Below, piece after piece: positions 23,484 to 54,427 of a DNA stretch of 54,736 nucleotides (positions are counted from its first letter, which is position 1; every line of letters starts with the position of its first letter). The DNA lies in contig DVED01000124.1 in NCBI GenBank assembly GCA_015295945.1, positions 1-54,736 of the forward strand, in the 5' to 3' direction. The translations under genes and the position numbers were made by a program. Source of the stretch: Oscillatoriales cyanobacterium M59_W2019_021. GTDB lineage: Bacteria > Cyanobacteriota > Cyanobacteriia > Cyanobacteriales > Geitlerinemataceae. The notes under the pieces are model-generated. The model ran no database searches and was not told the origin of the DNA. It was given only the letters and a program-made list of their open reading frames with translations.

Positions 23484-24467
23484 ATGACCCAAATATCCGC
23501 CATTATTTGCACGCACAATCGATCGCAGTATCTGGGAGCGGCGATCGATAGTTTACTCGACCAGGATTTCGAGGCGGACTCGTTTGAGGTCGTGGTGGTG
23601 GACAACGGGTCGATCGATCGCACCCGCGACGTGGTGACAGAACGCCTTCCCGATCCACGCTTGCGCTACATCTGGGAACCCACCCTCGGCTTATCCGTCG
23701 CCCGCAATCGCGGCGCCACCGAAACCCGATCCCCCATTCTCGCCTATCTCGACGACGACGCCGTTGCCAGTCCCCACTGGCTGCGAACCCTCTGGGTCGC
23801 CTACCAAACCAACGATAAGCTCGCCGTGGCGGGGGGAAAAGTGGCCTTGCTTTGGCCCGAAGGCGTGCAGCCTCCCGCTTGGCTGTCGCCGGGACTGGCG
23901 GCGAATTTGGGTGCGTACGACTTAGGAGAAGAGATTGCCTACATCGACAATCCCGGTTTGACTCCCCGAGGTTTGAACTACTCCATCCGCCGGACTTTCC
24001 TAGAATCTGTCGGTGGTTTCGACCCAAATTTGGGTCGCGTCGGTAAAATTCTCCTGTCTAACGAAGAACTGATGATGACCGAACTGGCACTGAAGAAAGG
24101 TTGGCAGGTGGCATACCTTCCCGAGGCGCTGGTGGCGCACAACGTGGCGATCGAGCGGTTGGCGCGATCGTGGTTTTTGCAGCGCGGTTGGTGGCAAGGC
24201 ATCAGCGAGTGCTATCGAGAACGATTGAGCGATCGATCAGGTTGGCAACAATTCCCGCGCGCATTGGAGCGAATCCTGCGCGGACTCTACAATGCGGTAA
24301 AATACCGAACCGATCCGGCGCGGCGATTTGATAACCTCGTCTACGCCTACAGTCAAATTGGCTATCTGGGCGCCGCCATTCGGGGCAGATTCGACGCGGA
24401 CTCGACAACATCAGATCGATCGAGAAGGGAGAAAGTTAAGATTGAAGAGTTGGGCGTCGATCGTTAA
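23484..24467 (+). CDS. GT2 glycosyltransferase, hps-like cluster
   Basis: 327 residues, GT-A fold. The N-terminus ISAIICTHNRSQYL is typical of GT2. The donor-site acids are in VVVVDNGSIDRT and LAYLDDDAVA (DDD of the DxD motif). The stretch from PPAWLSPGLAANLG through GGFDPNLGR and NEELMMTELALKKG continues the catalytic domain. No membrane helices, so it is probably a cytoplasmic or peripheral enzyme adding one sugar to a lipid-linked polysaccharide. It is the first gene of a three-gene cluster with a 20-base gap to the next. It resembles HpsN/HpsO-type enzymes as I recall them; the exact orthologue is not certain. Confidence 0.85.
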   Translation: MTQISAIICTHNRSQYLGAAIDSLLDQDFEADSFEVVVVDNGSIDRTRDVVTERLPDPRLRYIWEPTLGLSVARNRGATETRSPILAYLDDDAVASPHWLRTLWVAYQTNDKLAVAGGKVALLWPEGVQPPAWLSPGLAANLGAYDLGEEIAYIDNPGLTPRGLNYSIRRTFLESVGGFDPNLGRVGKILLSNEELMMTELALKKGWQVAYLPEALVAHNVAIERLARSWFLQRGWWQGISECYRERLSDRSGWQQFPRALERILRGLYNAVKYRTDPARRFDNLVYAYSQIGYLGAAIRGRFDADSTTSDRSRREKVKIEELGVDR

Positions 24468-24487
24468 GTGTTAATTATTAATCTTTT

Positions 24488-25426
24488 ATGACTTCTACTT
24501 CTGCCAAGGTTCCCATTTCCGTTCTCATTCCCGCGAAAAATGAGGAAGCCAATCTTCCCGCTTGCTTAGAAAGTGTTGCCCGTGCCGATGAAATTTTCGT
24601 CGTCGATTCCCAAAGCGACGATCGCACCTGCGAAATTGCTGAAAGCTACGGGGCAAAAGTCGTACAATTTCACTTTAAAGGCGGTTGGCCGAAAAAGAAA
24701 AACTGGTCTCTGGATCGCCTTCCCTTTCGCAACGAATGGGTGTTAATTGTCGATTGCGACGAACGGATTACCCCCGAACTGTGGGACGAAATGGCAGCCG
24801 CCATTCAATCTGGCGATCGCGACGGTTACTATCTCAATCGTCGGGTCTTTTTCCTGGGAACTTGGATTCGTCACGGCGGTAAATATCCCGATTGGAACCT
24901 GCGCTTATTCAAACATGCGAAAGGTCGTTACGAAAACTTACACACCGAAGACGTTCCCAATACGGGCGACAACGAAGTTCACGAACACGTCGTTCTAGAA
25001 ACCCCTGCCGGATACCTGCAACACGATATGATTCACGAAGATTTTCGAGATATCTATCATTGGCTAGAACGACACAATCGCTACTCCAATTGGGAAGCGC
25101 GAGTCTATTACAATATCCTAACCAGCAATGACGATCGCGGCACGATCGGCGCCAATCTCTTCGGCGATGCCGTCCAACGCAAGCGGTTTCTCAAGAAGAT
25201 TTGGGTACAACTCCCCTTTCGTCCCACCCTCCGTTTTATCCTGTTTTACTTTATCCGCTTGGGCTTTTTAGATGGAAAAGCCGGCTATGTATACGGACGA
25301 TTGCTCGGTCAATACGAGTTTCAAATTAGCGCGAAACTATACGAACTCATGAACTACGGCGGACAGTTGAATGTTGTCAAAGAATCACCCAAAGTTACAA
25401 AATCTGTCGCTCAACTAAATTCGTAA
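24488..25426 (+). CDS. GT2 glycosyltransferase, WaaE-like, hps-like cluster
   Basis: 312 residues. ISVLIPAKNEEANLPACLES, then EIFVVDSQSDDRTCEIAESYGA and GWPKKKNWSLDRLP are characteristic of the WaaE/KdtX-like branch of GT2. The catalytic acids are in LIVDCDERITPEL. The region from TWIRHGGKYPDWNLRLF onward, and a likely amphipathic C-terminal membrane-binding region (FRPTLRFILFYFIRLGFLDG), complete the family. It adds a sugar during assembly of an extracellular or envelope glycan. The second gene of the cluster, closely spaced on both sides. Confidence 0.87.
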   Translation: MTSTSAKVPISVLIPAKNEEANLPACLESVARADEIFVVDSQSDDRTCEIAESYGAKVVQFHFKGGWPKKKNWSLDRLPFRNEWVLIVDCDERITPELWDEMAAAIQSGDRDGYYLNRRVFFLGTWIRHGGKYPDWNLRLFKHAKGRYENLHTEDVPNTGDNEVHEHVVLETPAGYLQHDMIHEDFRDIYHWLERHNRYSNWEARVYYNILTSNDDRGTIGANLFGDAVQRKRFLKKIWVQLPFRPTLRFILFYFIRLGFLDGKAGYVYGRLLGQYEFQISAKLYELMNYGGQLNVVKESPKVTKSVAQLNS

Positions 25427-25474
25427 TTCATCTTCGATTGTTTGTCCTTCATCATAGGCAACTAGCTACTAGCT

Positions 25475-26059
25475 ATGACCATGAATCCTCAATCTTGGGT
25501 TGATTTACGATCGTACGATCGCGCAAAGTTCGATCGCGGTCGTCCCGGTTGGTATGTCATGTTATGGTGGTTAGTACAGGCGATCGCTTTTCCCATCAGT
25601 CCCCATACTTTTAATGGATTTCGGTGTGGGTTGCTACGGCAATTTGGAGCCAAAATCGGTGAAGATGTACTCATTCGACCGACTGCCCGATTTACCTATC
25701 CTTGGAAAGTGGAAATCGGCAATTATAGCTGGATTGGCGATGATGTGGTGTTTTACAGTCTCGATACCATTCGGATTGGCGAACATTGCGTTATCTCTCA
25801 AAAAACGTACCTGTGTACGGGGAGTCATGACATCGAAGATCCGGCATTTGGCTTGATAACCTCGCCGATAACAGTGGAAAATGGTGCTTGGGTGGCAGCG
25901 GATTGTTTTGTCTCGCCGGGAGTCTGTATTGGGGCGAATTCTGTGGTTGGAGCGAGATCGTCGGTCTTTACCAATTTGCCACCGGGTTACGTGTGTCTGG
26001 GAACGCCTTGCCGTCCCCGATATCCCCGAAAAATGAAGGCAAAAACCGATCTGAATTAA
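25475..26059 (+). CDS. hpsU: WcaF-like acetyltransferase, HpsU type
   Basis: 194 residues, left-handed beta-helix O-acetyltransferase. After an N-terminal hydrophobic region (WYVMLWWLVQAIAFPI), hexapeptide repeats run from IGEDVLIRPTARFTYP to IGANSVVGARSSVF. The catalytic His is in LCTGSHDIEDPAFG. This is the WcaF-like family; in filamentous cyanobacteria its members include HpsU, linked to hormogonium polysaccharide. Two starts are possible, ATG 25475 and ATG 25481 (MNPQSWVDLRSYD); both give the same protein core. Adjacent glycosyltransferases support a role in acetylating a polysaccharide. The symbol is a best match by memory and context. Confidence 0.8.
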   Translation: MTMNPQSWVDLRSYDRAKFDRGRPGWYVMLWWLVQAIAFPISPHTFNGFRCGLLRQFGAKIGEDVLIRPTARFTYPWKVEIGNYSWIGDDVVFYSLDTIRIGEHCVISQKTYLCTGSHDIEDPAFGLITSPITVENGAWVAADCFVSPGVCIGANSVVGARSSVFTNLPPGYVCLGTPCRPRYPRKMKAKTDLN

Positions 26060-34386: not shown

Positions 34387-35679
34387 TTAATTCTGTGCCA
34401 ACAACGCCGTTCCGTAGGCAGCTTCCGTATGCGGAGATTGGAGGATGGGAACGCGGAGATGGCGGTGGCGGATGCGACTCCAGGGGGCATTTTTCGCGCC
34501 GCCGCCAGCAGTATACACCCGCGAAATGGGGGTAGCACCGAGTTGTTGCAAGAGTTGATAGCCTCGCGCTTCGATTCGCGCTAAACTTTCTAGCAAGCCG
34601 TGTAAAAAGGCAACGGGATCGTCCGGTCGGGGTTCCAATTTGGGGGGATACTGGGGATCGTTGATGGGGAAGCGTTCTCCGGGTTGGGTGAGGGGATAGT
34701 AATTCAGGGAACTTTCGGTGTCGGGAAGGCGATCGCTCAGAGTGGCGAGTTCGGCATCGGTGAAGAAGTTTCGCAACACCGCACCACCGGCGTTGGACGC
34801 GCCTCCGGTCAGCCACAAGTTGCCGAGGCGATGGCTGTAAATGCCGTAGCGACTGTCTTCGATACGCGATCGACTGAGGAGTTTGAGGACGATCGTCGAA
34901 CCCAGGGAGGTGACGGCTTCACCAGGGTGTTGCACCCCACTGGCGAGACAAGCCGCGATGCTGTCCGTGGTTCCCGCACAGACGAGGCATTGAAGAGAGA
35001 AGCCAAAGCGATGGGCGATGTCGGGGATGAGTTGACCAATGGGGGTTCCCGGCGCCACTACGCGGGGAAGTTGGGGAACTCTTCCGTTGGCGATGCGGTG
35101 GATGCCCTCTACTAGCCACTTAGGATACCATAAATTCACCGGGTCGCAGCCTAATTTTAAGGCATTGTGATAGTCACTGATGCCGAGTTGACCGTGGAGT
35201 AAAAACGCCAACCAATCGGCTTGGTGGAGGAAGAAATACTCGGATTTAGTGGCTCCCCCCTCCAGCCACCAGAGGAGTTTGGCGAAGCTGGAAGTGGCAC
35301 TCACCACGGTATGGTTTGCCGGAGCGATTTCGGTGACTTTATCCAGAACTGCCGCACCGCTTCCGTCGTTGTAGAGGAGGGGAGGTACGACGGGTTCGCC
35401 GGACGCATCGCAGAGCAAGACAGTTGCCGACGTACCGTTGATGGCAATGCGCGAAACGATCGCCCCTTGGGGAAGTTGCTGCCGGGTGGTTTCCAGGAGA
35501 GCGAACAAGGCTTCGCGCCAAGTGGCTGGGTTGGCAGTTGCCGATGGGGTGAAGGGAGACTCGGCTTGCGATCGAATTTCTCCGGCCGTATCGATAGCGA
35601 TCGCTCGAGCGCCCGAAGTCCCGAAATCGATTCCTAAAGCGCACTCCAAATTTTTACCTGAAACGGGTGAATTTGTCAA
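34387..35679 (-). CDS. FGGY-family carbohydrate kinase
   Basis: 430 residues. The ATP phosphate loop is CALGIDFGTSGARAIAID, with the second nucleotide site in GGASNAGGAVL and a later GAKNAPWSRIRHR. The catalytic Asp of the family is expected in the SLGSTIVLK/TTDSIAACLASG region. I recall similar cyanobacterial enzymes that phosphorylate D-ribulose or xylulose, which would feed the pentose phosphate/Calvin cycle; substrate not proven. The ORF begins with TTG at 35679 (TTG ACA AAT); no ATG is available before the phosphate loop, so an unusual start is probable. The gene diverges from the sulfotransferase operon. Confidence 0.82.
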   Translation of the reverse strand: MTNSPVSGKNLECALGIDFGTSGARAIAIDTAGEIRSQAESPFTPSATANPATWREALFALLETTRQQLPQGAIVSRIAINGTSATVLLCDASGEPVVPPLLYNDGSGAAVLDKVTEIAPANHTVVSATSSFAKLLWWLEGGATKSEYFFLHQADWLAFLLHGQLGISDYHNALKLGCDPVNLWYPKWLVEGIHRIANGRVPQLPRVVAPGTPIGQLIPDIAHRFGFSLQCLVCAGTTDSIAACLASGVQHPGEAVTSLGSTIVLKLLSRSRIEDSRYGIYSHRLGNLWLTGGASNAGGAVLRNFFTDAELATLSDRLPDTESSLNYYPLTQPGERFPINDPQYPPKLEPRPDDPVAFLHGLLESLARIEARGYQLLQQLGATPISRVYTAGGGAKNAPWSRIRHRHLRVPILQSPHTEAAYGTALLAQN

Positions 35680-35847
35680 GACTTTTTCAACTCAAAATAA
35701 CTCGTGCTAACTTAAAAATAGTATGACATCGATCGGGTAGCATTGAGCTTTCAGCTATTAGCCGTCAGCTTCAGATCTACCTCAACATTAGATTTAAATG
35801 CTAGCATGGTTGCGTTGGGGAAAAGTTGAGGAAAAGTTTGATCGAAG
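35680..35847 (+). promoter_or_regulatory. Divergent promoter region of sulfotransferase operon
   Basis: AT-rich spacer between the kinase and the sulfotransferase operon, including TAAAAATAGTATGACATCG near 35714-35730. No ribosome site of consensus type precedes 35848 (closest is GAGGAAAAG at 35828-35836). Exact promoter elements cannot be placed with confidence. Confidence 0.4.
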
Positions 35848-36657
35848 ATGCTATTAACCGATAAATTTGTCTACATTCACTATCCCAAAACAGGCGGATC
35901 GTTTGTCACCAATCGGCTCTTTAAGCTGCACGAAGGCACTGGAGTGCAGAACCCAACACTGCAGCGAATTGGCAAACGATTGGGAACCACCTGGGGAGGG
36001 TTAATCGATACCGCCAAAGAAGGCTTGCAACACAATACTTGTCGGGAAATTCCCTTCGGGTTTCGCCACAAACCGATCGTCTCGACCATTCGCAATCCTT
36101 ACGATCGCTACGTATCCGGATATATGTACGGTTGGTGGAAACGCTATCCCGAACAGTTTGCTGGTGATGTGGAGGCAGTATCCAAAGCCTATCCCAACTA
36201 TCCCGATTTATCCTTTGACGACTACGTGAGAATTAGCAACGATTTTAACGCTTTTCAGAAAATATCGACCCCTCATTTAAATCCCGACAATCCCATCGGT
36301 CAAAGAACCTACGAAACGATTCAATTTTTCTTCAAATACGATCCAGAAACAATTTTTTTAAAGCTAACAGAAGATTATATTACCTCTGGCACTTACAAAC
36401 AAGATATTTTCCCCGTTCGTTTCCTGAAAATGGAAAACTTGAATCGAGAACTGTACGACTTTCTAGTAGAAGTTGGATATCCTTCAGAACGGGTAAAATT
36501 CATTCTCGAATCGGAAAAAGTGCTGCCGGGGATGCAACCGGGAACGATCGTGCGAGAAGATTCGGGATGGCAAGCGTATTATACTCCCGAACTCAAGGCA
36601 TTTGTTCGACAGCGAGATCGCCTCTTTTTTCAAATGTTTCCCGAGTATGATGTCTAA
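35848..36657 (+). CDS. Sulfotransferase (paralogue 1 of 3)
   Basis: 269 residues; a PAPS-dependent sulfotransferase of the sulfotransferase-2-like class. The 5'-phosphosulfate loop is YIHYPKTGGSFVTNRL and the 3'-phosphate motif is TIRNPYDRYVSGYMYGWW. The C-terminus YYTPELKAFVRQRDRL...FPEYDV is shared by all three paralogues. A 20-residue segment with RIGKRLGTTWGG after the N-terminal helix is shared with paralogue 2 but absent in paralogue 3. No signal peptide or membrane helix, so it acts in the cytoplasm on a lipid-linked or nucleotide-linked intermediate, or another small acceptor. First gene of the six-gene operon. Confidence 0.82.
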   Translation: MLLTDKFVYIHYPKTGGSFVTNRLFKLHEGTGVQNPTLQRIGKRLGTTWGGLIDTAKEGLQHNTCREIPFGFRHKPIVSTIRNPYDRYVSGYMYGWWKRYPEQFAGDVEAVSKAYPNYPDLSFDDYVRISNDFNAFQKISTPHLNPDNPIGQRTYETIQFFFKYDPETIFLKLTEDYITSGTYKQDIFPVRFLKMENLNRELYDFLVEVGYPSERVKFILESEKVLPGMQPGTIVREDSGWQAYYTPELKAFVRQRDRLFFQMFPEYDV

Positions 36658-36662
36658 ATAAA

Positions 36663-37472
36663 ATGCTGTTAACCGATAAATTTGTTTATATTCATTATCC
36701 CAAAACTGGGGGAACCTTTGTTACCGAAACTCTCCAAAAAATTCACGCCGGAAAAGGATACAAAAAGTCAACAGTTAGCAAAATTGCGCGAAGATTCGGC
36801 AGCGTTGGCGGCGGCATCGTCGATACAGCATCCGAGGGAAGCAAACACGCCACCTGTCGCGACATTCCTCCGGCATTTCTCCGCAAACCCATTCTCTCCA
36901 CCGTTCGCAACCCTTACGAACGCTATCTTTCGGGATACTCGTTCGGGTGGTGGAAAAAGCATCCCCAAGACTTTATGCTAGATGTAGCGGCGATCGTTCG
37001 CGACTATCCCCAGTATCCCGAAATTTCATTTTCAGAATACGTTTATATTGTTAACACCTATCATTATTTTAGAACGCTAAAAACGCCGCACCTCAATTCC
37101 CAAAATCTCGTCGGACAGAGAACCTACGAGATCGTTCGTTTTTTCTTTAAAGATCCTCCCGAAATAATTTTTCCAAAACTGAGTGACGAGTATATTTACA
37201 CACAACAGTATCGCTCGGATCTCTGTCCGGTTCATTTTCTGCAAACCCACAATCTCAATCGGGGACTCTATGACTTTTTGCTTAAAGTCGGTTACGATCG
37301 GTCTCAAATCAAATTTATTCTCGATGCCGATCGCATCTTACCCAATTTACCACCTGGCGGCATTCGGCGATCGTCAAAGCGTTGGCAAGAGTATTATACT
37401 CCCGAACTCAAAGCTTTTGTCCGACAGCGAGATCGCCTGGTCTTTTCCTTATTTCCCGAGTTTGACGTGTAA
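36663..37472 (+). CDS. Sulfotransferase (paralogue 2 of 3)
   Basis: 269 residues, starting five bases after paralogue 1. Motifs are YIHYPKTGGTFVTETL and TVRNPYERYLSGYSFGWWKK, plus DSQIK-like C-terminal YDRSQIKFILDADRILP. The length, the RRFGSVGGG insert and the tail match paralogue 1, which points to a tandem duplication. Divergence is substantial in the middle (about 100-200), the region expected to contact the acceptor, so the two may have different acceptor sites. Confidence 0.82.
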   Translation: MLLTDKFVYIHYPKTGGTFVTETLQKIHAGKGYKKSTVSKIARRFGSVGGGIVDTASEGSKHATCRDIPPAFLRKPILSTVRNPYERYLSGYSFGWWKKHPQDFMLDVAAIVRDYPQYPEISFSEYVYIVNTYHYFRTLKTPHLNSQNLVGQRTYEIVRFFFKDPPEIIFPKLSDEYIYTQQYRSDLCPVHFLQTHNLNRGLYDFLLKVGYDRSQIKFILDADRILPNLPPGGIRRSSKRWQEYYTPELKAFVRQRDRLVFSLFPEFDV

Positions 37473-37481
37473 GCAATAGAA

Positions 37482-38357
37482 ATGTTGAAATCCCTACCCA
37501 TTCTCCGACAAAAACCTATTTTAATCGTGGGTTTACCTCGCAGCGGAACAACTTGGTTGGCTTCAATTTTGAATACTGCGAGGGGGATCGAATATTTTCA
37601 CGAACCTTTTAACAGCAATCACGTTCCGGAAGCCGTTCTTCTAGCAGATAAATATTTGCGCGAGAATGACATCGATCGAGAATTTGAAGCCTACTGTCAA
37701 AAAATATTTTCAGGAAAACACGAAAGTGGTTTTGTTTGTCACAAACTGTCATATTTTTATCAAAAGTATCGTTGGTTTCCCGGTCGAGTGATGGTCAAAG
37801 ACGTGCGATGCCATAAAACTTTAGCCTGGATCGATCGGCACATTTCACCAAAAATTGTCATTACTATGCGGCATCCGTGTGCGGTAGCTAACAGTTTGCT
37901 GCGACTGTATGGTGAAGGGGTTGGAGATCGATTGTTTCAGCGAATTCTCAATTTACCGGAATTAATTGAGGATTATCTTCATCCTTTTCAAGATTTATTC
38001 GATCGAGCGGAAGGGTTTTGGCAAAAAATAGGAGTGGTCTGGGGTGCAACGTATTACGTCATTCAACAACAAAGCCTTCAAAAAAACAACTGGATTTTCG
38101 TGAAACACGAGTCGCTCTGTCTCGATCCAGAGCGAAAATACCGACAGTTATTCGATCGCTTAAATCTTCAGTGGACGACCCAAACCGATCGATTGCTCAA
38201 TTTATCAACAACTCAAGATAGCGGTCATCCCTATGTTCCCGAACGGATTGCATCGCAAGAATATAACAAATGGAAAAAACAGATTGAGCCATGCCAAATC
38301 GAACAAGTGAAAGAGTTTGTTCTACCTTTTAAGTTACCCTATTACTCGGATTTTTGA
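37482..38357 (+). CDS. Sulfotransferase, classical P-loop type
   Basis: 291 residues. The phosphosulfate loop ILIVGLPRSGTTWLASILN and the 3'-phosphate motif TMRHPCAVANSLLRLYGEG mark a different sulfotransferase subfamily from its three neighbours. A later IFVKHESLCLDPERKYRQL is also family-typical. It is inserted between paralogues 2 and 3, with a 9-base gap before and 50 bases after. It probably sulfates another position or another acceptor of the same polysaccharide. Confidence 0.82.
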   Translation: MLKSLPILRQKPILIVGLPRSGTTWLASILNTARGIEYFHEPFNSNHVPEAVLLADKYLRENDIDREFEAYCQKIFSGKHESGFVCHKLSYFYQKYRWFPGRVMVKDVRCHKTLAWIDRHISPKIVITMRHPCAVANSLLRLYGEGVGDRLFQRILNLPELIEDYLHPFQDLFDRAEGFWQKIGVVWGATYYVIQQQSLQKNNWIFVKHESLCLDPERKYRQLFDRLNLQWTTQTDRLLNLSTTQDSGHPYVPERIASQEYNKWKKQIEPCQIEQVKEFVLPFKLPYYSDF

Positions 38358-38407
38358 TTTAGCAAATTGAATGGCTAATTACTGTTAACAAGGAGATCGC
38401 CTTAACG

Positions 38408-39160
38408 ATGCTATTAACCCCTAATTTTGTTTATATTCATTACCCTAAAACAGGTGGCACATTTGTTACTGAAATCCTCAAGAAGGTTCATAATAACCCA
38501 GAATTTGGTAGCCTAGTCGATACGACAACAGCAGGAACGAAACACGGACAATGTAGGCAAATTCCGCCAGACCATCAACATAAACCGATCGTATCCACCA
38601 TGCGAAACCCTTACGATCGCTACGTCTCCGCTTACGAATTTGGATGGTGGAAAAAATACCCCGAAAGTTTCTTTGAAGATGTAAATTTTGTCAAACAAAA
38701 GTATCCCTATTTTCCATCGCTTTCGTTTGCCGAATATTTAGAGGCTATCAACAGTCTTTGTAAATTTCATACTTTGGAAACCCCTAATCTCGATCCCGAT
38801 CTCTCGATCGGTCGGCAAACCCAAAACTTTATTAAGTATTTTTTCAATAAACCCGTAGAAGCAATCTTTGCTAAATTCAATCGAGAGTACATTCGATCGA
38901 AGGACTATCTAGAAGACCTCTTCAGCGTTCGATTTCTCAACACCGAAACTCTCAATCAGGATTTGTACGATCTACTCTTAGAATTTGAATATCCTCAAAA
39001 AGATATTCAATTTATCTTGACTGCCGATAAGATCTTTCCACCGGAAGGTGGCAGAAGCGAAGAACAAAACTGGCAAAATTACTACACTCCAGAACTGAAA
39101 GAATTTGTAAAATTGCGAGAAATGCTCCTCTTTTCTATTTTTCCTGAGTTTGATGTTTGA
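38408..39160 (+). CDS. Sulfotransferase (paralogue 3 of 3)
   Basis: 250 residues; motifs YIHYPKTGGTFVTEILKK and TMRNPYDRYVSAYEFGWWKK. It lacks the about 20-residue insert of paralogues 1 and 2 (reads NPEFGSLVDTTTAG instead), so it is the more distant copy. The tail YYTPELKEFVKLREML...FPEFDV is retained. A GGAGA ribosome-like site lies upstream at 38391-38395. Its stop overlaps a TTG start option for the next gene. Confidence 0.82.
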   Translation: MLLTPNFVYIHYPKTGGTFVTEILKKVHNNPEFGSLVDTTTAGTKHGQCRQIPPDHQHKPIVSTMRNPYDRYVSAYEFGWWKKYPESFFEDVNFVKQKYPYFPSLSFAEYLEAINSLCKFHTLETPNLDPDLSIGRQTQNFIKYFFNKPVEAIFAKFNREYIRSKDYLEDLFSVRFLNTETLNQDLYDLLLEFEYPQKDIQFILTADKIFPPEGGRSEEQNWQNYYTPELKEFVKLREMLLFSIFPEFDV

Positions 39161-39174
39161 GAATAGCTGATAAA

Positions 39175-40158
39175 ATGCGATCGTCTTTATCTCCCGAACT
39201 CGATTTTACCGTCGCCATTCCAACGTATAATGGCGCGAATCGATTGGCGGAAGTTTTGGAAAAACTGCAAATTCAGATGGGTACGGAGTCTATTCGCTGG
39301 GAAATTCTCATTATCGATAATAATAGCACCGATCGCACCGCAGAGTTCGTTCGACAGATGCAAAAAAACTGGACTCAATCTTATCCCTTACGATACACTC
39401 TGGAAACCCAACAAGGCGCATCCTTTGCTAGACTGAAAGCCATCGGAGAAGCAAAAGGGAAATGGGTGGGATTTCTCGATGACGACACCATTCCCGCTGA
39501 AAACTGGGTGGTAGCTGCGTATCAATTTGGGGAAAAACATCCAAAAGTTGGCGCATATGGCAGTCAAGTTCGTGGAGCTTATGAAGTCAAACCTCCCCCT
39601 AACTTTGAGAAAATAGCTAGCTTTTTTGCTATCACCGAACGCGGTTCTCAACCCCATCTTTACGAACCTAAAATGAAGATGCTACCCCCATCGGCTGGAT
39701 TAGTGGTTCTTAAACAAGCATGGTGCGAAAGCGTTCCCGACAAACTCTTTTTAAGCGGTCGTTCTGCGCGATCGATCCTTAATAGCGAAGACCTAGAAGT
39801 CATCCTGTACATCCAAAATGCTGGGTGGGAAATTTGGTATAACCCCGAAATGGAAATTTACCATAAAATTCCGCGCGATCGTTTGGAACGAGATTACTTA
39901 CTATATTTGATGCGAAGTACGGGGTTGGCACGACACTATATTCGGATGTTGCGCTTTAAAACTTGGCAAAAACCTTTCGTTTTTCCCGTGGGTTTCGGTC
40001 GAGATATTTATAAAGCTATTCGTCATTTTTGTAAGCATCGGCACCATCTCGATCGCGATATTGTGGCTGCCTGCGAACTGGAATTTTTAACGAGTAGTAT
40101 TATCAGTCCTTTTTATCTGTGGAGAGAATCGATAAAACGATGGTGGATTTCACGGTAG
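39175..40158 (+). CDS. HpsE-like GT2 glycosyltransferase 1
   Basis: 327 residues from the ATG at 39175; a TTG at 39157 overlapping the previous stop opens the same frame six codons earlier. DFTVAIPTYNGANRLAEVL, ILIIDNNSTDRTAEFV, ETQQGASFARLKAI and WVGFLDDDTIPAENWVV are the catalytic GT-A blocks. The later LPPSAGLVVLKQAW, NSEDLEVILYIQNAGWEIWYNPEMEIYHKIP region matches hormogonium polysaccharide HpsE-type enzymes as I recall them. No transmembrane helix is evident. It overlaps the next gene by 19 bases, indicating coupled translation. Confidence 0.85.
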   Translation: MRSSLSPELDFTVAIPTYNGANRLAEVLEKLQIQMGTESIRWEILIIDNNSTDRTAEFVRQMQKNWTQSYPLRYTLETQQGASFARLKAIGEAKGKWVGFLDDDTIPAENWVVAAYQFGEKHPKVGAYGSQVRGAYEVKPPPNFEKIASFFAITERGSQPHLYEPKMKMLPPSAGLVVLKQAWCESVPDKLFLSGRSARSILNSEDLEVILYIQNAGWEIWYNPEMEIYHKIPRDRLERDYLLYLMRSTGLARHYIRMLRFKTWQKPFVFPVGFGRDIYKAIRHFCKHRHHLDRDIVAACELEFLTSSIISPFYLWRESIKRWWISR

Positions 40159-41111
40159 CGATTCCAACTTATAATAGCGAGCATCGCTTACCTCTATTTT
40201 TGGAAAAACTCCGAGAATGTTTGCTCTATACCGAACGCTCGGAACTATGCAATATTTCTGTCGAAGTCATTATTGTTGATAATAATAGTGGCGATCGTAC
40301 GGAAAAAATTATTAAAAACTATCGAGAAAATTGGCATTCTAAATTTCCATTAATCTACTGTTTTGAAGCCGAACAAGGTGCGGCTTTTGCAAGACAACAT
40401 GCCGTTCGAGTAGCTCACGGAGAGTTTATCGGTTTTCTGGATGACGATAATTTACCCGCACCAGATTGGATCGTGCGTGCTTATTTATTTGGCAAACAGC
40501 ATCCCCAAGCGGGTGCGTATGGCGGAAAAATTCACGCAAAGTATGAAGTTTTACCTCCTGAAAACTTCGATCGAATAGCAGGGTTTTTAGCCATTCGCCA
40601 TCGAGGGGAACACCCCAATTTATATCAACCCGAAGTGCTGAGTTTGCCACCGGGTGCGGCAATGGTGGTGCGTCGCCAAGCGTGGCTAGATTGCGTTCCC
40701 CAGCGTCCGAAGTTGGGAGGAAAAGCCGCAGGTTCGATGATTCAAGGTGATGATTGGGAACCGTTAATTTATCTCTACAAAGCGGGTTGGGAAATTTGGT
40801 ACAATCCAGAGATGCGTACCGAACATCAAATTCCGGCATTTCGCCTCGATCGAGAATATTTACTCGCATTGATTCGCGGGTCTTGCCTGTGTTTTATTCC
40901 TTTAAAAATGATGTTTCTAAAGCCTTGGCAGAAGCCGATTGCGATCGCCAAAACGGTTTTAGGAAATAGCTATAAAGCCGCATGGCATTACCTCCAATAT
41001 CGAAACTTGTTGAAGTCAAATCTGGTCAAGAGATGCGAGTTGCAAATTTATTTAAGTCGAATTGAGAGCGTTTTTTATTATTTTTCTCTATTCAAAAACC
41101 GTCATTGGTAG
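40140..41111 (+). CDS. HpsE-like GT2 glycosyltransferase 2
   Basis: 323 residues from the ATG at 40140 (MVDFTVAIPTYNSEHRLP). It is a paralogue of the preceding gene, with EAEQGAAFARQHAV, GEFIGFLDDDNLPAPDW and GWEIWYNPEMRTEHQIP. Conservation is strong except in the segment after KPPENF/LPPENF. Last gene of the operon; the convergent CPBP gene ends 32 bases downstream. Two similar glycosyltransferases in series suggest alternating addition of related sugars to the polysaccharide chain. Confidence 0.85.
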   Translation: MVDFTVAIPTYNSEHRLPLFLEKLRECLLYTERSELCNISVEVIIVDNNSGDRTEKIIKNYRENWHSKFPLIYCFEAEQGAAFARQHAVRVAHGEFIGFLDDDNLPAPDWIVRAYLFGKQHPQAGAYGGKIHAKYEVLPPENFDRIAGFLAIRHRGEHPNLYQPEVLSLPPGAAMVVRRQAWLDCVPQRPKLGGKAAGSMIQGDDWEPLIYLYKAGWEIWYNPEMRTEHQIPAFRLDREYLLALIRGSCLCFIPLKMMFLKPWQKPIAIAKTVLGNSYKAAWHYLQYRNLLKSNLVKRCELQIYLSRIESVFYYFSLFKNRHW

Positions 41112-41142
41112 TTATTGATGCGATCAAAATGTAAAAATATAG

Positions 41143-41991
41143 CTATTCTGCCAATGATTTTTGAGTCTTTTTTGCCATATATTTCATCCCCAAGGCGATG
41201 GCACTTAACCAAACCATTCCCATCATGCCTGCTAAAGGATTCGCATCAATTCCCGTCACCCAAACCGGAACGGCATCCCGGTATTCCATTAATTGACCGA
41301 CATTCATGAGGTAATATCCCCACACTAATCCTGAATGCAACCCCATCGGCAAACCTAATCGTCTTTGTCCCGTTTTTTTTGCCCAGACCAATGCTAAACC
41401 CAATAAAAATAAACCCGGAAAAGCAGGAAGCGATCGCAGCATTTCTTGCCAAGGTTTAATAAAGTGTACGGCGGCAAATAACAACGCATTCACCCAAGTT
41501 GCGGTGTCGCTGCGGTAGTCTCGCTGCAACTCATCCAACAACCACCCTCGAAACAATAACTCTTCCGCAAATCCAATCCCAACAGCTACGGCAAAACCTT
41601 CTACAGCAATGCGGGGAAAGTTGCTTGCCGGGGGTTGCCATGCCAGCCAACCCAGCACAAATTCCAAGCTGAGTAATGAGAACAAACTAACTAACCCCAA
41701 GCTCAAACCGAACAGCCAATCTCGACCGTTTTTTTGAAAAAAAATCAGTCCGTAACGCTGAAAAAGAGATTGCCGATAAACATAACGTCCCCATATTTTG
41801 AGTAATACGAGAAATTCGAGATAGAGAATTCCCATGCTCAGGATACTCACCCAATTGGGGTCTGGAACGAAGCGATAAATGGGTAAGGCAAAGGGAACCC
41901 ACAACAGCAACAGCGCGATCGTAAAAAGGCTGAAGCGAATGGCTAAGGGGTGTCGATCGAGTTGTTTGAATCGAGATTTAAAAAAATTCAC
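41143..41991 (-). CDS. CPBP family intramembrane glutamic protease
   Basis: 282 residues, seven to eight membrane helices. The catalytic motif EELLFRGWLLDEL is intact, as are FAAVHFIKPWQEML and GLHSGLVWGYYL. The segment GLHSGLVW...VPVWVTGIDANPLAGMMGMVWL corresponds to GLHAGWVW...PEWVSGISGKPLAGLLGIILL in the protein at 13322-14206. Such proteases act on membrane-embedded or prenylated substrates; substrate unknown. It is convergent with the sulfotransferase operon. Confidence 0.85.
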   Translation of the reverse strand: MNFFKSRFKQLDRHPLAIRFSLFTIALLLLWVPFALPIYRFVPDPNWVSILSMGILYLEFLVLLKIWGRYVYRQSLFQRYGLIFFQKNGRDWLFGLSLGLVSLFSLLSLEFVLGWLAWQPPASNFPRIAVEGFAVAVGIGFAEELLFRGWLLDELQRDYRSDTATWVNALLFAAVHFIKPWQEMLRSLPAFPGLFLLGLALVWAKKTGQRRLGLPMGLHSGLVWGYYLMNVGQLMEYRDAVPVWVTGIDANPLAGMMGMVWLSAIALGMKYMAKKTQKSLAE

Positions 41992-42114
41992 AGAACTCTA
42001 ATTTTGATAATATTAGTGATATTGCACTGAGCGGTTGAATCCCGTACACTCCTAGTGCGATCGGCAGTCATCAGATTGGGGACGATCGATCGCTCGTTTT
42101 CAAACTTTGGAATT

Positions 42115-43092
42115 ATGAAAAACCCAAATCAAAATTCTACGATCGTCACTCCCACAATCCAAGAGATGTATACCGATGGCGCGTGTAGCGGCAATCCCGG
42201 CAAAGGAGGGTGGGGAACCGCCATCTACTACGCCGATGGCTCGGTTTGCGAATTGGGCGGTATGGAGCCGGAGACGACCAATAATCGCATGGAAATGCAG
42301 GCAGCGATCGCCGCACTGGAATTTCTTGCTAATTCCGGACAAACCCAATCGGTAACGCTGTATACCGATAGCGAATACGTGAAAAATGGGATTACCCAAT
42401 GGATTCGCGGTTGGAAAAACAAAAATTGGAAAACCTCCACCGGAAAACCCGTTCTCAACCGAGATTTGTGGGAAATTCTCGATCGCCTCAATTCCCCTCA
42501 AATTCGTTGGGAATACGTGCGCGGTCATGCCGGAAATGAAGGTAACGAACGCTGCGATACCATCGCTCGCGCCTTTGCCCAAGGTCGAAATCCTGCCTTA
42601 CAACAGCCAAACAGTCTGAAATTGTCCGCACCCGAAAATGGGGATCGCCCAACCCCAAACAACGGGAAATCTAAAGAAACTCTGCCGATTTTCGCAGATC
42701 GCGCGATCGCCCCCAAACTCAATTTATCCCCCGATCGCATCCACATCACTGCAAATGAGAGGTTACAATCAACATCTGTAACTTCTAGTTCTGTAATTTT
42801 CGATCCTGACATGACAGACCTGACCCATAACGCTAACGAGGCTACCCTTGATACCCGCCCTTCGGATTCTCGGATTGTCGCACTGCGCGACGTTGTCGAA
42901 AGTCTGCGAATTGCCGATGAAGTCGCAGCCAAAGGTTATTTAATCAGCAGTTCCGAACTCGCCGATTTGATCGATGTCAACGCCAGTGCCGTCACCTCTC
43001 GAGGAGATCACTGGGTTTGGCGCAATTGGGTTGTTTCGCGGGTGCGACGCGAAGGCAACCAAATTCTCTGGCAGTTGGAACGAGTGGATTAA
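42115..43092 (+). CDS. rnhA: Ribonuclease HI with extra C-terminal domain
   Basis: 325 residues from the ATG at 42115; a shorter distance-based alternative at 42055 adds 20 unlikely residues. It degrades RNA of RNA-DNA hybrids. The four catalytic acids are in MYTDGACSGNPGKGGWG, NNRMEMQAAIAAL, LYTDSEYVKNG and HAGNEGNERCD. Usual RNase HI is about 155 residues; here a low-complexity linker (about 160-250) leads to a 70-residue C-terminal domain (RIVALRDVVESLRIADEVAA, then SSELADLIDVNASAVTSRGD, VVSRVRREGNQILWQLERV) that resembles a winged helix. Confidence 0.93.
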   Translation: MKNPNQNSTIVTPTIQEMYTDGACSGNPGKGGWGTAIYYADGSVCELGGMEPETTNNRMEMQAAIAALEFLANSGQTQSVTLYTDSEYVKNGITQWIRGWKNKNWKTSTGKPVLNRDLWEILDRLNSPQIRWEYVRGHAGNEGNERCDTIARAFAQGRNPALQQPNSLKLSAPENGDRPTPNNGKSKETLPIFADRAIAPKLNLSPDRIHITANERLQSTSVTSSSVIFDPDMTDLTHNANEATLDTRPSDSRIVALRDVVESLRIADEVAAKGYLISSSELADLIDVNASAVTSRGDHWVWRNWVVSRVRREGNQILWQLERVD

Positions 43093-46875: not shown

Positions 46876-49809
46876 CTAATTCGACGAAGAAGCGGTTGTT
46901 TCCGGTTCCGAAAAATCTTCGGGCGATCCAAAAATATCGCTATCGTCCCACTCATCCTCTTCTTCCGGTTTGATCGACCGAATCGGACGAGAAAAATCCA
47001 TTAAATCGTTGGGTGCGAGGACGGTAACTTCGACGCTAGGTACGCTGTCTTCTGGCGAAGAGTCGAGTTCTTCGTCATTATCTGGCTCGATGTCTTCTAA
47101 TTCCGCATTTTCTAAATCTGCCTCTTCTAATTCAACTTCCTGGGTTTCAACTACAGGAGCGATCGCCTTATCTTCAACTGGCACTCGATCGATCCCTTTC
47201 TTGGTGAAAACTAGTCCATCTTCGCGACACTCAACCACGATCGTATCGCCTTCTACAAACGCCATTTCTAACAGTTTGGTAGCGATCGGGTTTTCCAATT
47301 CCCGTTGAATGGCTCGCTTCAAGGGACGCGCCCCGTACACCGGATCGTAGCCCACATCGGCGATATAAGTTTGTGCCGCTTGAGTGAGTTCGATTTTGAT
47401 TTTTTGTTCGCCTAACAACCGTTCCAACCGCTTAATTTGAATACCGACAATATCGCGCAATTCGGCTTTACTCAGCGGGTGGAAGAGGATAATATCGTCA
47501 ACGCGATTGAGGAATTCCGGGCGGAAGTGCGATCGCAAAGCATCGTACACCCGCTTTCGCATTTCTTCGTATTTGGCATCGTTCCCCGCCACATCTAAAA
47601 TGTGTTGGGAACCGATATTACTGGTCATCACAATCACGGTATTGCAGAAGTCTACCGTTCTCCCTTGAGAATCGGTAATTCGCCCGTCATCGAGGACTTG
47701 CAGCAAAATATTAAAAACATCCGGGTGAGCCTTTTCTACCTCGTCAAACAACAACACCGAATAGGGTTTGCGGCGGATGGCTTCCGAGAGTTGTCCCCCT
47801 TCCTCGAATCCCACATATCCCGGAGGCGCACCCACTAAGCGGGCAACGGAATGTTTTTCCATATATTCCGACATATCGATCCGCACCAAGGCATCGCGAT
47901 CGTCGAATAACGATGCTGCCAATGCCCGCGCTAATTCCGTTTTTCCCACCCCTGTGGGACCCATGAACAGGAAGGAACCGATCGGACGACCGGGATCTTT
48001 CATTCCGGCACGGGCGCGGCGGATGGCGGCGGAAACGGCTTCTACGGCTTCCGATTGTCCGATGACGCGCTGGTGCAGTTGGGTTTCGAGTTGCAGCAAT
48101 TTTTGCCGTTCTGACTCCAGTAAGCGGTTCACCGGAATTCCCGTCCACTTGGCGACGATTTCGGCGATGTCGGCTTCGGTGACTTCCTCTCGCAGCATGG
48201 TCGTGCCTTGGGATTGGAGGGTCATCAGTTCGGTTTCCTTAGCTTCGCGATCGCGCTGAACCACCGCCAATTCGCCGTATTTCAATCGTGCCGCCAGTTC
48301 CAAATCCGATTTCCGTTCCGCTTGTTCGATCTTCAGGCGCAGTTGTTCTTCTTCTTCTTTAAGCGTATTGATGGAATCCAGGAGTTGCTTTTCGCCCTGC
48401 CACTGAGAACTGAGTTCTTCTTGCCGGGTTTTCAATTGGTCGATTTCTTGGCGGATGCGTCCCAACCGTTCCTGAGAAGGCGCGTAGGTTCCCACCCGTT
48501 CCTCTTCCGCTTCCAGAGACAGCTTTTCCATCTCCAACTGCATCAAGCGGCGATCGACATCTTCCAATTCGGCGGGTTTGGAGGTAATCTCCATCTTTAA
48601 GGTCGCCGCCGCTTCGTCTACGAGATCGATCGCCTTATCCGGGAGAAATCGATCGCTGATATAACGGTTGGATAGCGTTGCCGCCGCCACCAACGCCGCA
48701 TCGATAATCTTCACCCCGTGGTGGACTTCGTAGCGTTCCTTCAGCCCGCGCAGAATGGAAATGGTATCCTCCACGCTGGGTTGTCCCACGTAAACCTGTT
48801 GAAAGCGGCGTTCGAGTGCTTTATCCTTTTCGATATGCTTGCGGAACTCATCGATCGTCGTTGCCCCGATACACCGCAGTTCCCCCCGTCCCAGCATCGG
48901 TTTGAGCAAGTTTCCCGCATCCATCGTCCCTTGGCTGCCGCCGCCTCCCGCACCGATGACGGTGTGCAATTCGTCGATAAACAGGACGATTTGCCCGTTG
49001 GAACCCGTCACTTCTCGCAAGACCGATCGCAACCGTTCCTCAAATTCTCCCCGAAACTTCGCCCCGGCAATTAAACTGCCCATATCTAAGGAAATCAAGC
49101 GGCGATTTTTCAGCGATTCCGGCACGTCGCCGTTGACGATGCGTTGCGCCAAGGCTTCGGCTACCGCCGTTTTCCCCACCCCCGGTTCGCCGATCAACAC
49201 CGGGTTATTTTTGCGCCGCCGGGAGAGAATGCCGATCGTCTGGCGAATTTCCTCATCTCTGCCGATGACCGGATCGAGTTTCCCTGCTCTGGCTTGTTCC
49301 GTCAAGTCTCTGCCGTATCGTTCCAGAACCCCTTCGGCTTGTTCGGCTTTGGCTTCTTTCTTTTGAGTGGCTTGGCGCAGTTTTTTGATGGCGGCGGCAA
49401 GTTGCGCTTGTTCCACGTTGAGGGTTTTCAGCGCTCGCCGTCCGATGCGATCGTCCTGGGCCAATCCTAACAGCAAGTGTTCTTCGGAAATCACCTCATC
49501 TTGGAAGTTCTGCCGCGCCGCATCCGCCTTATCCAGCATGGTATCCAAGCTGCGACCCAAATACAACTGATCGATGCGATACACTTTGGGATGGCGCTTG
49601 GCGAAGGTGTCCAGTTGTTGCGCCAGGGTTTCCGGTTCCACACCGACGGCTTGGAGAATTTGCTGCGCGAGATCCGAATGCTCCAACAGTGCCAGGGCAA
49701 CGTGTTCGACTTCTAAGTATTGATTTTGGTAGCGTTTGGCAACATCTTGGGAGTTGACGATGGCATCCCAGGCTTTATCGGTAAATTGGGTGGGGTCTGT
49801 TGGCTGCAT
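46876..49809 (-). CDS. clpB: ATP-dependent chaperone ClpB with acidic C-terminal tail
   Basis: 977 residues; hexameric AAA+ disaggregase that works with DnaK to solubilise protein aggregates. The N-domain is followed by NBD1 ([28 protein letters not shown]), the coiled M-domain ([20 protein letters not shown] and onward), and NBD2 ([27 protein letters not shown]). Typical ClpB is about 860-880 residues; here about 100 extra residues follow the last AAA+ small domain (from [14 protein letters not shown] to PETTASSSN), strongly acidic with many Glu/Asp. The tail has no known domain. Confidence 0.95.
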
Positions 49810-50918: not shown

Positions 50919-52364
50919 TTACAAGCCTATCAGGGCGATCGCCTGTTCTATAATTTCTGTAGCCTGTTCGGTTTGTCCGTTCTCGGCTAAAGTGTCGGCA
51001 ATGTCTGTCAGTGCCGAGGCTTTCCGTTGGTCATCGGGAATAGATTGAGCCACCTCCAAAGCTCGCTCTAACTGTCCCGCTTTGGCTAAGGCAACAGCAA
51101 TCCCATACAATGCCCAGGCTTTGGGCTTGTCATCGGGAAAGGATTGAGCCACCTCCAAAGCTCGCTCTAACTGTCCCGCTTCGACTAAGGCAACAGCAAT
51201 CCCACCCAACGCCCCGGCTTTGGGCTTGTCATCGGGAAAGGTTTGAGCCACCTCTAATGCTCGCTCTAACTGTCCCACTTCGGCTAAGGCAACCGCAATC
51301 TCATACAACGCCCTGCCTTTCCACCCGTTATCGGTAATCGATTGAGCCACCTCTAATGCTCGCTCGGACTGTCCCGCTTTGGCTAAGGCAACAGCAATCT
51401 CATACAACGCACTGGCTTTGAGCCTGTCATCGGGAAAGGTTTGAGCCACCTCTAATGCTCGCTCTAACTGTCCCGCTTCGACTAAGGCAACAGCAATCCC
51501 ACCCAACGCCCCGGCTTTGGGCTCGTCATCGGGAAGGGACTCGGTCACCTCCAATGCTCGATCGAATTGTCCCACTTCGACAGCAATGCCTGTCAGTACC
51601 CAGGCTTTGGACCCGTCATCGGGAAAGGTTTGAGCCACCTCCAATGCTCGATCGAATTGTCCCGCTTCGACAGCAATGCCTGTCAGTACCCAGGCTTTGG
51701 ACCCGTCATCGGGAAAGGTTTGAGCCACCTCCAAAGCTCGCTCGACTTGTCCCGCTTCGGCTAAGGCAAGAGCAATCCCATACAATGCCTCGGCTTTCGT
51801 CCAGTCACCGGGAAGGGACTCGGTCACCTCTAATGCTTGATCGATTTCTCCCGCTTTGGCTAAGGCAACAGCAATCCCACGCAATGCCTCAGCTTTCGTC
51901 CAGTCACTGGGAAGGGACCCGGCTACCTCTAATGCTCCATCGACGTTTCCGGTTTCGACTAAGGCAATCCCAATTTCACTCAACGTTAAAGTTTTGCTCA
52001 AATCAGTAACGGTTTGAGCCACATCCAATGCTCGATCGATTTCTCCAGCTTCGGCTAAGGTAACAGCAATTCCACGCAATGCCGAGTCTTTTGATACCGA
52101 TCCTTCATCGGTAATGGCGCCAGAGATCTCCAACGCTCGATCGAATTGTCTCACTTTTGCCAAAACTACAGCTATTTGGGATAACAGGTCAGGGTCGTGC
52201 TGTAGCGTTTGAGACAAATGGAATGACTCAGCAGCCAATTCCCCGGTCTTGCCAATCACACCCAGATTCTCAGTGTTCGTTACAGAAATTGCCCCCCATC
52301 CGGCACGCGGCATGAGAACCGCCAGAGACGCTAGCACGGGAATGAAGAGTGTTTGAAGTTTCAT
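50919..52364 (-). CDS. Secreted TPR-like repeat protein, paralogue 1
   Basis: 481 residues. A signal peptide (MKLQTLFIPVLASLAVLMPRAGWG) implies export. The rest is about a dozen tandem units of about 33 residues with the consensus GQLERALEVAQTFPDD then KPKAGALGGIAVALVEA: pairs of short helices as in TPR/PPR-like solenoids. Two units are shortened to 30 residues (GIAVEAGQFDR...), and these two adjacent DNA copies (51551-51640, 51641-51730) differ at a single base, showing recent duplication. It ends ALIGL, shared with the paralogue at 53213. Function unknown; a binding or scaffold surface is the safest inference. Confidence 0.82.
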   Translation of the reverse strand: MKLQTLFIPVLASLAVLMPRAGWGAISVTNTENLGVIGKTGELAAESFHLSQTLQHDPDLLSQIAVVLAKVRQFDRALEISGAITDEGSVSKDSALRGIAVTLAEAGEIDRALDVAQTVTDLSKTLTLSEIGIALVETGNVDGALEVAGSLPSDWTKAEALRGIAVALAKAGEIDQALEVTESLPGDWTKAEALYGIALALAEAGQVERALEVAQTFPDDGSKAWVLTGIAVEAGQFDRALEVAQTFPDDGSKAWVLTGIAVEVGQFDRALEVTESLPDDEPKAGALGGIAVALVEAGQLERALEVAQTFPDDRLKASALYEIAVALAKAGQSERALEVAQSITDNGWKGRALYEIAVALAEVGQLERALEVAQTFPDDKPKAGALGGIAVALVEAGQLERALEVAQSFPDDKPKAWALYGIAVALAKAGQLERALEVAQSIPDDQRKASALTDIADTLAENGQTEQATEIIEQAIALIGL

Positions 52365-53212: not shown

Positions 53213-54427
53213 CTATAAGCCTATCAGGGCGATCGCCCCCTCCAAAATTTCCGCAGCTTTTTCGGTTTGTCCGTTCTCGGCTAAGATGTCGGCAATGGTG
53301 CGAGCAATTTCTAAGGCTCGATCGACGTTTCCCGCTACGGCTAAGGCAGCCGCAATTTTGTGCAGTACAAAGGCTTGGCGAGCGTCCTCGGTAATGGTTT
53401 GGGCAAGTCGCACAGATCGATCGATTTCTCCAGCTTCGGCGATGGCTACAGCAATCCCGTCTAACGCCAAGCCTTTACTCCATTCATCGGGAATAGTGCC
53501 AGCGATCTCCAATGCCCGATCGATGTCTCCGGCGTGAGCTGACCAATGAGCAATCCCGCTCAACGCCAAGGCTTGCCACCCTTCGGGAATGGTGCGAGCA
53601 ATTTCCAGCGCCCGATCGATTTCTCCCGCTTCGGCTACAGCAAGCGCAATCGACAATGACGCTGGGGCTTCCCCCCAGTCAATCGTAATCGTTTGAGCTA
53701 AATCCAGCGCCCGATCGATGTCGCCGGTTTTAGCTAAGTCAGCAGCAATCGCAATCGACGTTGCCGATTGAAAACTTTCAAGAGGAATCGTTTGAGCCAA
53801 TTCTATAGCCCGCTCGACTTGTCCGGCTTGGGCTAAGTTAATGGCAATCGCGCGCAATGCAAAGGTTTTCGATAAGGAATCGGCAATCGCTTGGGTCATT
53901 TCCAAAGCTCGATCGATCTCTCCGGCATCGGCTAAGGCAACCACAATCTCTTTAAGCGCAAAGCCTTTATTCCATTCGTCGGTAATAGTGTCAGCTATTT
54001 CCAAAGCTCGATCGATTTCTCCGGCATCGGCTAAGGCAACCACGATCGCGCTTGATGTCGTCGATTGCAGCCCTTCATCGGTCGAGGTTTGAGCGATCGT
54101 TAAAGCGATATCGACTTCTCCAGCTTCGACCAAGGCAATGACAATGCTTTTGAATGCCGAGGTTTTCGGAGTTTCATCGGTAATGCTATGAGCCACTTCC
54201 AACGCTCGCTCGATCGATCCTACCTTCACCAAGACAACCGAAATCTCCTGTAACAGTGAGAAGTCTGGTGTTTGAGACAAATGGAATGACTCAACAGCCA
54301 ATTGCCCAGCATTGCCAATAACACCCAGATTCTCAGAGTAAGATCCAGACCTTGCCCCCAATCCGGCACGGGGTGCGAGAACCGCTAGAGAAGCCAGTCC
54401 GGAAATGAGGAATGCCTGAAGTTTCAT
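53213..54427 (-). CDS. Secreted TPR-like repeat protein, paralogue 2
   Basis: 404 residues; signal peptide MKLQAFLISGLASLAVLAPRAGLG. Units of about 33-34 residues have the consensus GEIDRALEIAxTITDEW then KGxALxxIAVALADA, with the same LERALE/DRALE core as paralogue 1 and the same ending GAIALIGL. Units are more diverged from each other than in paralogue 1. The shared signal peptide, C-terminus and upstream sequence show that the two genes arose by duplication. Confidence 0.82.
   Translation of the reverse strand: MKLQAFLISGLASLAVLAPRAGLGARSGSYSENLGVIGNAGQLAVESFHLSQTPDFSLLQEISVVLVKVGSIERALEVAHSITDETPKTSAFKSIVIALVEAGEVDIALTIAQTSTDEGLQSTTSSAIVVALADAGEIDRALEIADTITDEWNKGFALKEIVVALADAGEIDRALEMTQAIADSLSKTFALRAIAINLAQAGQVERAIELAQTIPLESFQSATSIAIAADLAKTGDIDRALDLAQTITIDWGEAPASLSIALAVAEAGEIDRALEIARTIPEGWQALALSGIAHWSAHAGDIDRALEIAGTIPDEWSKGLALDGIAVAIAEAGEIDRSVRLAQTITEDARQAFVLHKIAAALAVAGNVDRALEIARTIADILAENGQTEKAAEILEGAIALIGL

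Follow-up and report, generated by a model that had tools for sequence, protein, structure and literature searches.

The window analysed here, a stretch of 54,736 nucleotides on contig DVED01000124.1 of Oscillatoriales cyanobacterium M59_W2019_021, contains six open reading frames on the same strand between positions 35848 and 41111. The original prediction had described six such genes separated, in gene order, by gaps of 5, 9, 50 and 14 bases and then by a 19-base overlap, and an ORF check together with reading of the sequence gave the same result (the spacing assumes ATG starts at 39175 for GT1 and at 40140 for GT2). The six genes, referred to below as the cassette, and two landmarks outside it are as follows:

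35848..36657, + strand: ST1, a PAPS-dependent sulfotransferase of a divergent Sulfotransfer_2-like family (PF03567; PKTGG loop, H62, RNPYDRYVS)
36663..37472, + strand: ST2, a paralogue of ST1 (57% identity), from the most recent duplication of the set (ST1 and ST2 grouped 98/98)
37482..38357, + strand: ST3, a Sulfotransfer_3-type protein with a PRSGTT loop, from a family other than that of ST1, ST2 and ST4 (PF13469, PF00685)
38408..39160, + strand: ST4, a shorter paralogue of ST1 and ST2 with a gap after the PAPS loop (BLASTP; motifs kept)
39175..40158, + strand: GT1, an HpsE-family GT2 glycosyltransferase of the first-gene type of tandem (NF038302)
40140..41111, + strand: GT2, an HpsE-family glycosyltransferase of the second-gene type, overlapping GT1 by 19 bases (NF038302)
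34387..35679, - strand: FGGY-family sugar kinase, the divergent left neighbour, outside the cassette and used as a site marker (PF00370/PF02782)
46876..49809, - strand: clpB orthologue, 5.8 kb from the cassette and in opposite orientation (77% identity to ClpB of locus L008, see below)

According to Pfam profiles, the cassette is flanked by the FGGY kinase and by a CPBP protease. The GC content of its genes (0.385-0.449) contrasts with that of the 38 other ORFs of the window (0.524 +/- 0.032; Mann-Whitney p = 6e-7, the comparison set being the genes of the window), in agreement with the predicted A/T richness relative to the surroundings. The AT-rich stretch does not correspond exactly to the six genes, because it also covers the convergent CPBP-protease gene that follows them (GC 0.455). 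Inverted repeats of at least 20 bases, sought as insertion marks, were not found in 35400-42300, and the direct repeats in this interval are the coding paralogues themselves. Promoter and terminator scans returned no more sites than were obtained from shuffled sequence.

ST1, ST2 and ST4 all carry the PKTGG and RNPY motifs, and in BLASTP comparisons ST4 is 49% identical to each of the other two, so that their description as three paralogous sulfotransferases with PKTGG and RNPYxRY motifs holds; the tree that groups ST1 with ST2 does not settle the placement of ST4. They are the sole close members of their family in this genome. Their PF03567 scores are 23.4 bits (ST1), 20.7 bits (ST2) and 19.4 bits (ST4) for a cut-off of 22, the latter two falling just below it, and a homologue at locus L269 reaches 33 bits. 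In an alignment of 14 homologues from five phyla, the PAPS loop P13-G17 (PKTGG), H62, R82 and S90 are invariant. H62 of ST1 aligns with the histidine of mouse SULT7A1 that we take to be the catalytic base of SULT enzymes; the PAPS loop, the 3'-phosphate motif and the putative catalytic base are all conserved in ST1-type proteins. Divergence between the paralogues peaks at residues 31-60 and 211-240, and ST4 lacks approximately 16 residues within the former segment, just after the PAPS loop. Residues 121-150 rank only third, and the low-identity stretches do not form the one middle region in which the original prediction had placed most of the divergence.

The AlphaFold model of ST1, which is of high confidence (pLDDT 89), indicates a sulfotransferase fold, all 50 matches listed in the structure comparison being sulfotransferases or SULT relatives. 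The best of them are the heparan-sulfate 2-O- and 6-O-sulfotransferases (HS2ST, Z 9.6; HS6ST, Z 8.9; 4ndz and 5t03), which share the PAPS fold with the model but only 13-16% identity with ST1, and whose margin over other sulfotransferases is small: the others score at most 8.8, and SULT and tyrosylprotein sulfotransferases lie within about two Z units. The fold class is clear from the model, but, with Foldseek TM-scores of only about 0.4, it does not fix the type of acceptor. The heparan-sulfate enzymes are animal Golgi proteins that act on a finished chain. ST3 matches PF13469 at 55 bits (cut-off 27) and PF00685 at 33.7 bits and has no BLAST similarity to ST1, ST2 or ST4, as anticipated for an unrelated PRSGTT-type sulfotransferase; about a dozen further PF13469 sulfotransferase matches occur in this genome. 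The sulfotransferase assignments, which an absence of family matches would have undermined, are supported by the PF13469 match of ST3, by the motifs and by the ST1 model, the PF03567 scores of ST1, ST2 and ST4 lying on both sides of the cut-off.

Both glycosyltransferases belong, as predicted, to the HpsE family, with NF038302 scores of 486 bits (GT1) and 432 bits (GT2) for an equivalog cut-off of 300, and they are the only genes above this cut-off in the genome. HpsE itself is common: of 291 sampled Cyanobacteriia genomes, 111 carry a gene above the cut-off, and among 60 loci selected for their high scores about 26 are tandem pairs. The settings of these 60 loci are varied, with a uvrB-like gene, clpB and, in Nostocales-like genomes, pseudopilin loci among them. 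A sulfotransferase lies directly beside HpsE in just one of them (L144, PF13469), a lower bound obtained with local profiles and the loop pattern, and two further loci have a weak sulfotransferase match within about 4 kb. HpsE function therefore needs no sulfation, and what is unusual in the gene combination singled out by the original prediction is the pairing of HpsE with sulfotransferases and not the HpsE pair, which usually occurs without an adjoining sulfotransferase. The HpsE tree separates the first genes of the tandem from the second genes, GT1 and GT2 representing one group each; GT2 falls inside the second-gene group, which has a support of 100 in most loci.

Three other cyanobacterial genomes show the order clpB-sulfotransferase(s)-HpsE-HpsE, and clpB-ST-ST is retained in one more. 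In Oscillatoriales S07.Bin090 (L008) clpB is followed by an ST1-type gene, ST3, two HpsE genes, two GT2s and a SASA-type esterase, beyond which an SGNH-like gene and an MBOAT acyltransferase lie on the other strand. Locus L232, from a genome of the same taxonomic order but another family (G016), reads clpB, ST3, HpsE, HpsE, three GT2s, a methyltransferase and a SASA esterase, Oscillatoria SIO1A7 (L015) has clpB, ST, HpsE, HpsE, and Ca. Paraprochloron terpiosi (L011) has clpB, an ST gene broken by a stop, and ST3. Orthologues of ST3 adjoin clpB and HpsE in L008 and L232, and clpB and an ST in L011. The first three loci share protein families and their order with the cassette, but differ from it in having clpB directly upstream and extra GT2s nearby, the window clpB being 5.8 kb away. 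A search for the same gene order elsewhere, which had been proposed as a check, recovered the families in order beside clpB, but not the triplication: one ST1-type copy is present in L008 and L015 and none in L232, which has ST3 only, as opposed to three in the window.

The ST1-type family is rare. Of 387 other genomes sampled from the class, only 2 gave full-length members in a profile search; matches with E <= 1e-12 came from 4 of 388 other genomes of the order (one broken by a stop) and from none of the 13 family relatives searched. Outside cyanobacteria, its hosts are genomes of Chloroflexota, Acidobacteriota, Verrucomicrobia and Planctomycetota. The homologue at L269 (G552) lies among genes for ATP sulfurylase, APS kinase, an inositol-monophosphatase-family protein (PAP phosphatase-like), a CitMHS/Na-sulfate symporter-type transporter, a Wzy_C polymerase, an ABC transporter, glycosyltransferases and two other sulfotransferases. 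Other homologues adjoin an ABC-2 exporter with a Wzt-type ATPase (Wzm/Wzt-like; L009, Chloroflexota) or an ABC ATPase (L012, Verrucomicrobia), or reside within a glycosyltransferase cluster (L013, Planctomycetota); L010, a non-cyanobacterial homologue with no obvious polysaccharide locus, is the exception. These conserved neighbourhoods in unrelated genomes sustain the proposed tie to polysaccharide synthesis.

Comparison with family relatives provides clues to the origin of the cassette. In four of them (G001, G002, G005 and G007) the orthologue of the FGGY kinase and one or two HpsE genes (two in G001, G002 and G007) are transcribed divergently, and the HpsE genes are followed by GT4-like genes and by no sulfotransferases (GT4 typing by Pfam refers to G001). 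The window shares the kinase-divergent arrangement. Inheritance of the HpsE genes in place from these kinase-linked copies is not favoured, because in a quick tree GT1 does not group with them but is sister, with support 99, to the HpsE next to clpB-ST3 in G016. The cassette was probably acquired, since the relatives carry HpsE without sulfotransferases at the same site and GT1 groups with a clpB-ST3-linked copy from another family. The separate ancestry that had been proposed gains support from this grouping and from the absence of the ST1-type family in the 13 relatives, and the deviating GC content also speaks for acquisition. The simplest account would be acquisition of an ST-HpsE cassette at a site that holds other HpsE genes in relatives, followed by amplification of ST1: the block would have come from a different family of cyanobacteria, in which it was linked to clpB, and an ST1-type gene would then have given rise to the three copies. 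Note also that a phage or plasmid origin was considered and rejected, ST2 having no match in phage or plasmid records and weak partial matches only to viral contigs.

Taken together, the cassette is probably one co-transcribed, acquired unit that assembles and sulfates part of a surface or extracellular polysaccharide. The two HpsE glycosyltransferases would each add one sugar to a lipid-linked oligosaccharide at the cytoplasmic face of the inner membrane, and the four sulfotransferases would move sulfate from PAPS to hydroxyls of that lipid-linked chain before export, each ST1-type copy perhaps serving its own position. Sulfation of the lipid-linked repeat unit in the cytoplasm is the likeliest order of steps, because ST1-type proteins start almost at the PAPS loop and have no room for a leader. 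Export and polymerisation would depend on genes located elsewhere in the genome. The window genes scanned include no polymerase, flippase, ABC polysaccharide exporter, co-polymerase or priming transferase; the cassette is therefore a two-sugar and sulfation module, not a complete polysaccharide pathway, and the earlier view that the genes both make and sulfate one extracellular polysaccharide is not supported in that form. Points that count against the preferred reading are this lack of export, polymerisation and priming genes, the scarcity of sulfotransferases beside HpsE in the 60 high-scoring loci, the context of L010, and the low TM-scores together with the narrow structural margin.

A precedent is the synechan (xss) cluster of Synechocystis PCC 6803, with the sulfotransferase genes xssA and xssE, and cyanobacterial sulfotransferases are mostly located in EPS clusters (PMC8205485). 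Like the cassette, xss combines sulfotransferases of distinct subfamilies with glycosyltransferases, and its polymer is extracellular (PMC8205485). However, xss encodes eight glycosyltransferases, Wzx, Wzy, PCP, the XssQRS regulators and two sulfotransferases (PMC8205485), whereas the cassette has four sulfotransferases and two HpsE glycosyltransferases, no polymerisation or regulatory genes having been found with it, nor the Wzx/Wzy/PCP set or ABC exporter of an xss-type cluster among the window genes scanned. The hps locus of Nostoc punctiforme (hpsE-G) shares with the cassette the tandem of HpsE-family glycosyltransferases, to which L108 and similar loci add a third glycosyltransferase, but it contains no sulfotransferase and its HpsE is flanked by pseudopilin-like genes, the cassette showing the opposite on both points.

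A possible but doubtful alternative is that sulfation by the cassette is directed specifically at the motility (hormogonium-type, HPS) polysaccharide and thereby tunes gliding or adhesion; as a special case of the reading given above, it shares part of the confidence placed in that reading. The idea that the cassette enzymes decorate HPS follows from HpsE of Nostoc punctiforme making this polymer, HpsE being linked to the motility polysaccharide of filamentous cyanobacteria (PMC10581220; PMC9239167), and is consistent with GT1 and GT2 exceeding the equivalog cut-off as the only such genes and with HpsA-like fragments elsewhere in the genome. However, the pseudopilin genes hpsA-D do not adjoin HpsE in the window, unlike in Nostocales, and the HpsA matches are fragments on other contigs that score below the cut-off, so that the hormogonium-polysaccharide label exceeds the evidence; nor does membership of the HpsE family fix the polymer, because the family occurs in several different contexts. 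It is unlikely that the sulfotransferases act on a glycolipid, glycoprotein or secondary metabolite for which HpsE makes a short glycan: nearly all neighbourhoods of other homologues hold several glycosyltransferases, polymerase or exporter genes, even if the operon has no polymerase or exporter, the L010 homologue lies outside a polysaccharide locus, and the fold comparison puts SULT and TPST only slightly behind the heparan-sulfate enzymes. Very improbable is a fortuitous gathering of unrelated ST and HpsE genes, only some functional, in a stretch that is AT-rich, probably acquired and hosted by a genome with its dozen or so other PF13469 matches, since the recurrence of the ST and HpsE combination next to clpB in other genomes already speaks against it, as do the tight spacing and the intact catalytic motifs of all window copies.

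Returning to the assembly and sulfation of part of a polysaccharide as the preferred reading, sulfated EPS clusters with sulfotransferases are already known (xss, PMC8205485; PMC13125312), and heterologous transfer of such a cluster is on record (PMC13125312). No earlier description appears to exist of the rare ST family, of its triplication or of the recurrent clpB-ST-HpsE-HpsE order. The ten best-ranked of 137 literature matches for HpsE and sulfotransferase concerned heparan sulfate, heparanase (HPSE) and human sulfotransferases, and none of them linked cyanobacterial HpsE with sulfotransferases, in a search that lay mostly outside subscription journals. Interest in the sulfated polysaccharides of cyanobacteria is both ecological and biotechnological, and in the cited literature the genetically worked-out pathway is that of synechan (PMC8205485, PMC13125312). 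To this the cassette adds a sulfotransferase family that is seldom encountered and an ST-HpsE order that recurs between genomes, and tests would require only a few genes. More speculatively, it may represent a transferable HpsE-linked sulfation module that yields a sulfated motility or sheath polysaccharide in some filamentous cyanobacteria, with position-specific ST1 paralogues. The three paralogues form a small system in which to probe the position specificity of bacterial sulfotransferases, and, if they do differ in this respect, they would constitute a simple bacterial parallel to the patterning of heparan sulfate.

The AT-rich composition of the cassette is shared by the CPBP protease gene at window positions 41143-41991. 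A small ClpS-like gene adjoins the CPBP protease gene in several family relatives, but not in the window, and the rearranged stretch may therefore have its boundary near position 42000. Apart from the cassette, a same-strand group at positions 23484-26059 encodes a hexapeptide-repeat protein of acetyltransferase type together with two GT2 glycosyltransferases, of which the first is distantly related to HpsE, scoring 102 bits against the NF038302 cut-off of 300 bits. Elsewhere in the window, two neighbouring repeat-rich proteins (50919-52364, TPR-rich according to Pfam, and 53213-54427) have similar starts (MKLQ...LAVL.PRAG) and apparently form a duplicated pair.

In the organism's own genome, HpsA-like fragments scoring below the cut-off are divided between contigs C119 and C198, and a single 1657-aa open frame on contig C111 (25925-29440), a possible fused glycosyltransferase-sulfotransferase protein, carries three HpsE-like GT2 matches and one Sulfotransfer_3 match.

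The ST1-homologue locus of genome G552 (L269:1-14251) is a candidate complete sulfated-polysaccharide locus: it has its own genes for supplying PAPS (ATP sulfurylase, APS kinase and a PAP-phosphatase-like gene) and a sulfate-type transporter, adjoining a Wzy_C polymerase and three sulfotransferases. The ST1 homologue of Ca. Paraprochloron terpiosi (L011:1918-2625), interrupted by an in-frame stop, is a decaying copy; the neighbouring ST3 is intact.
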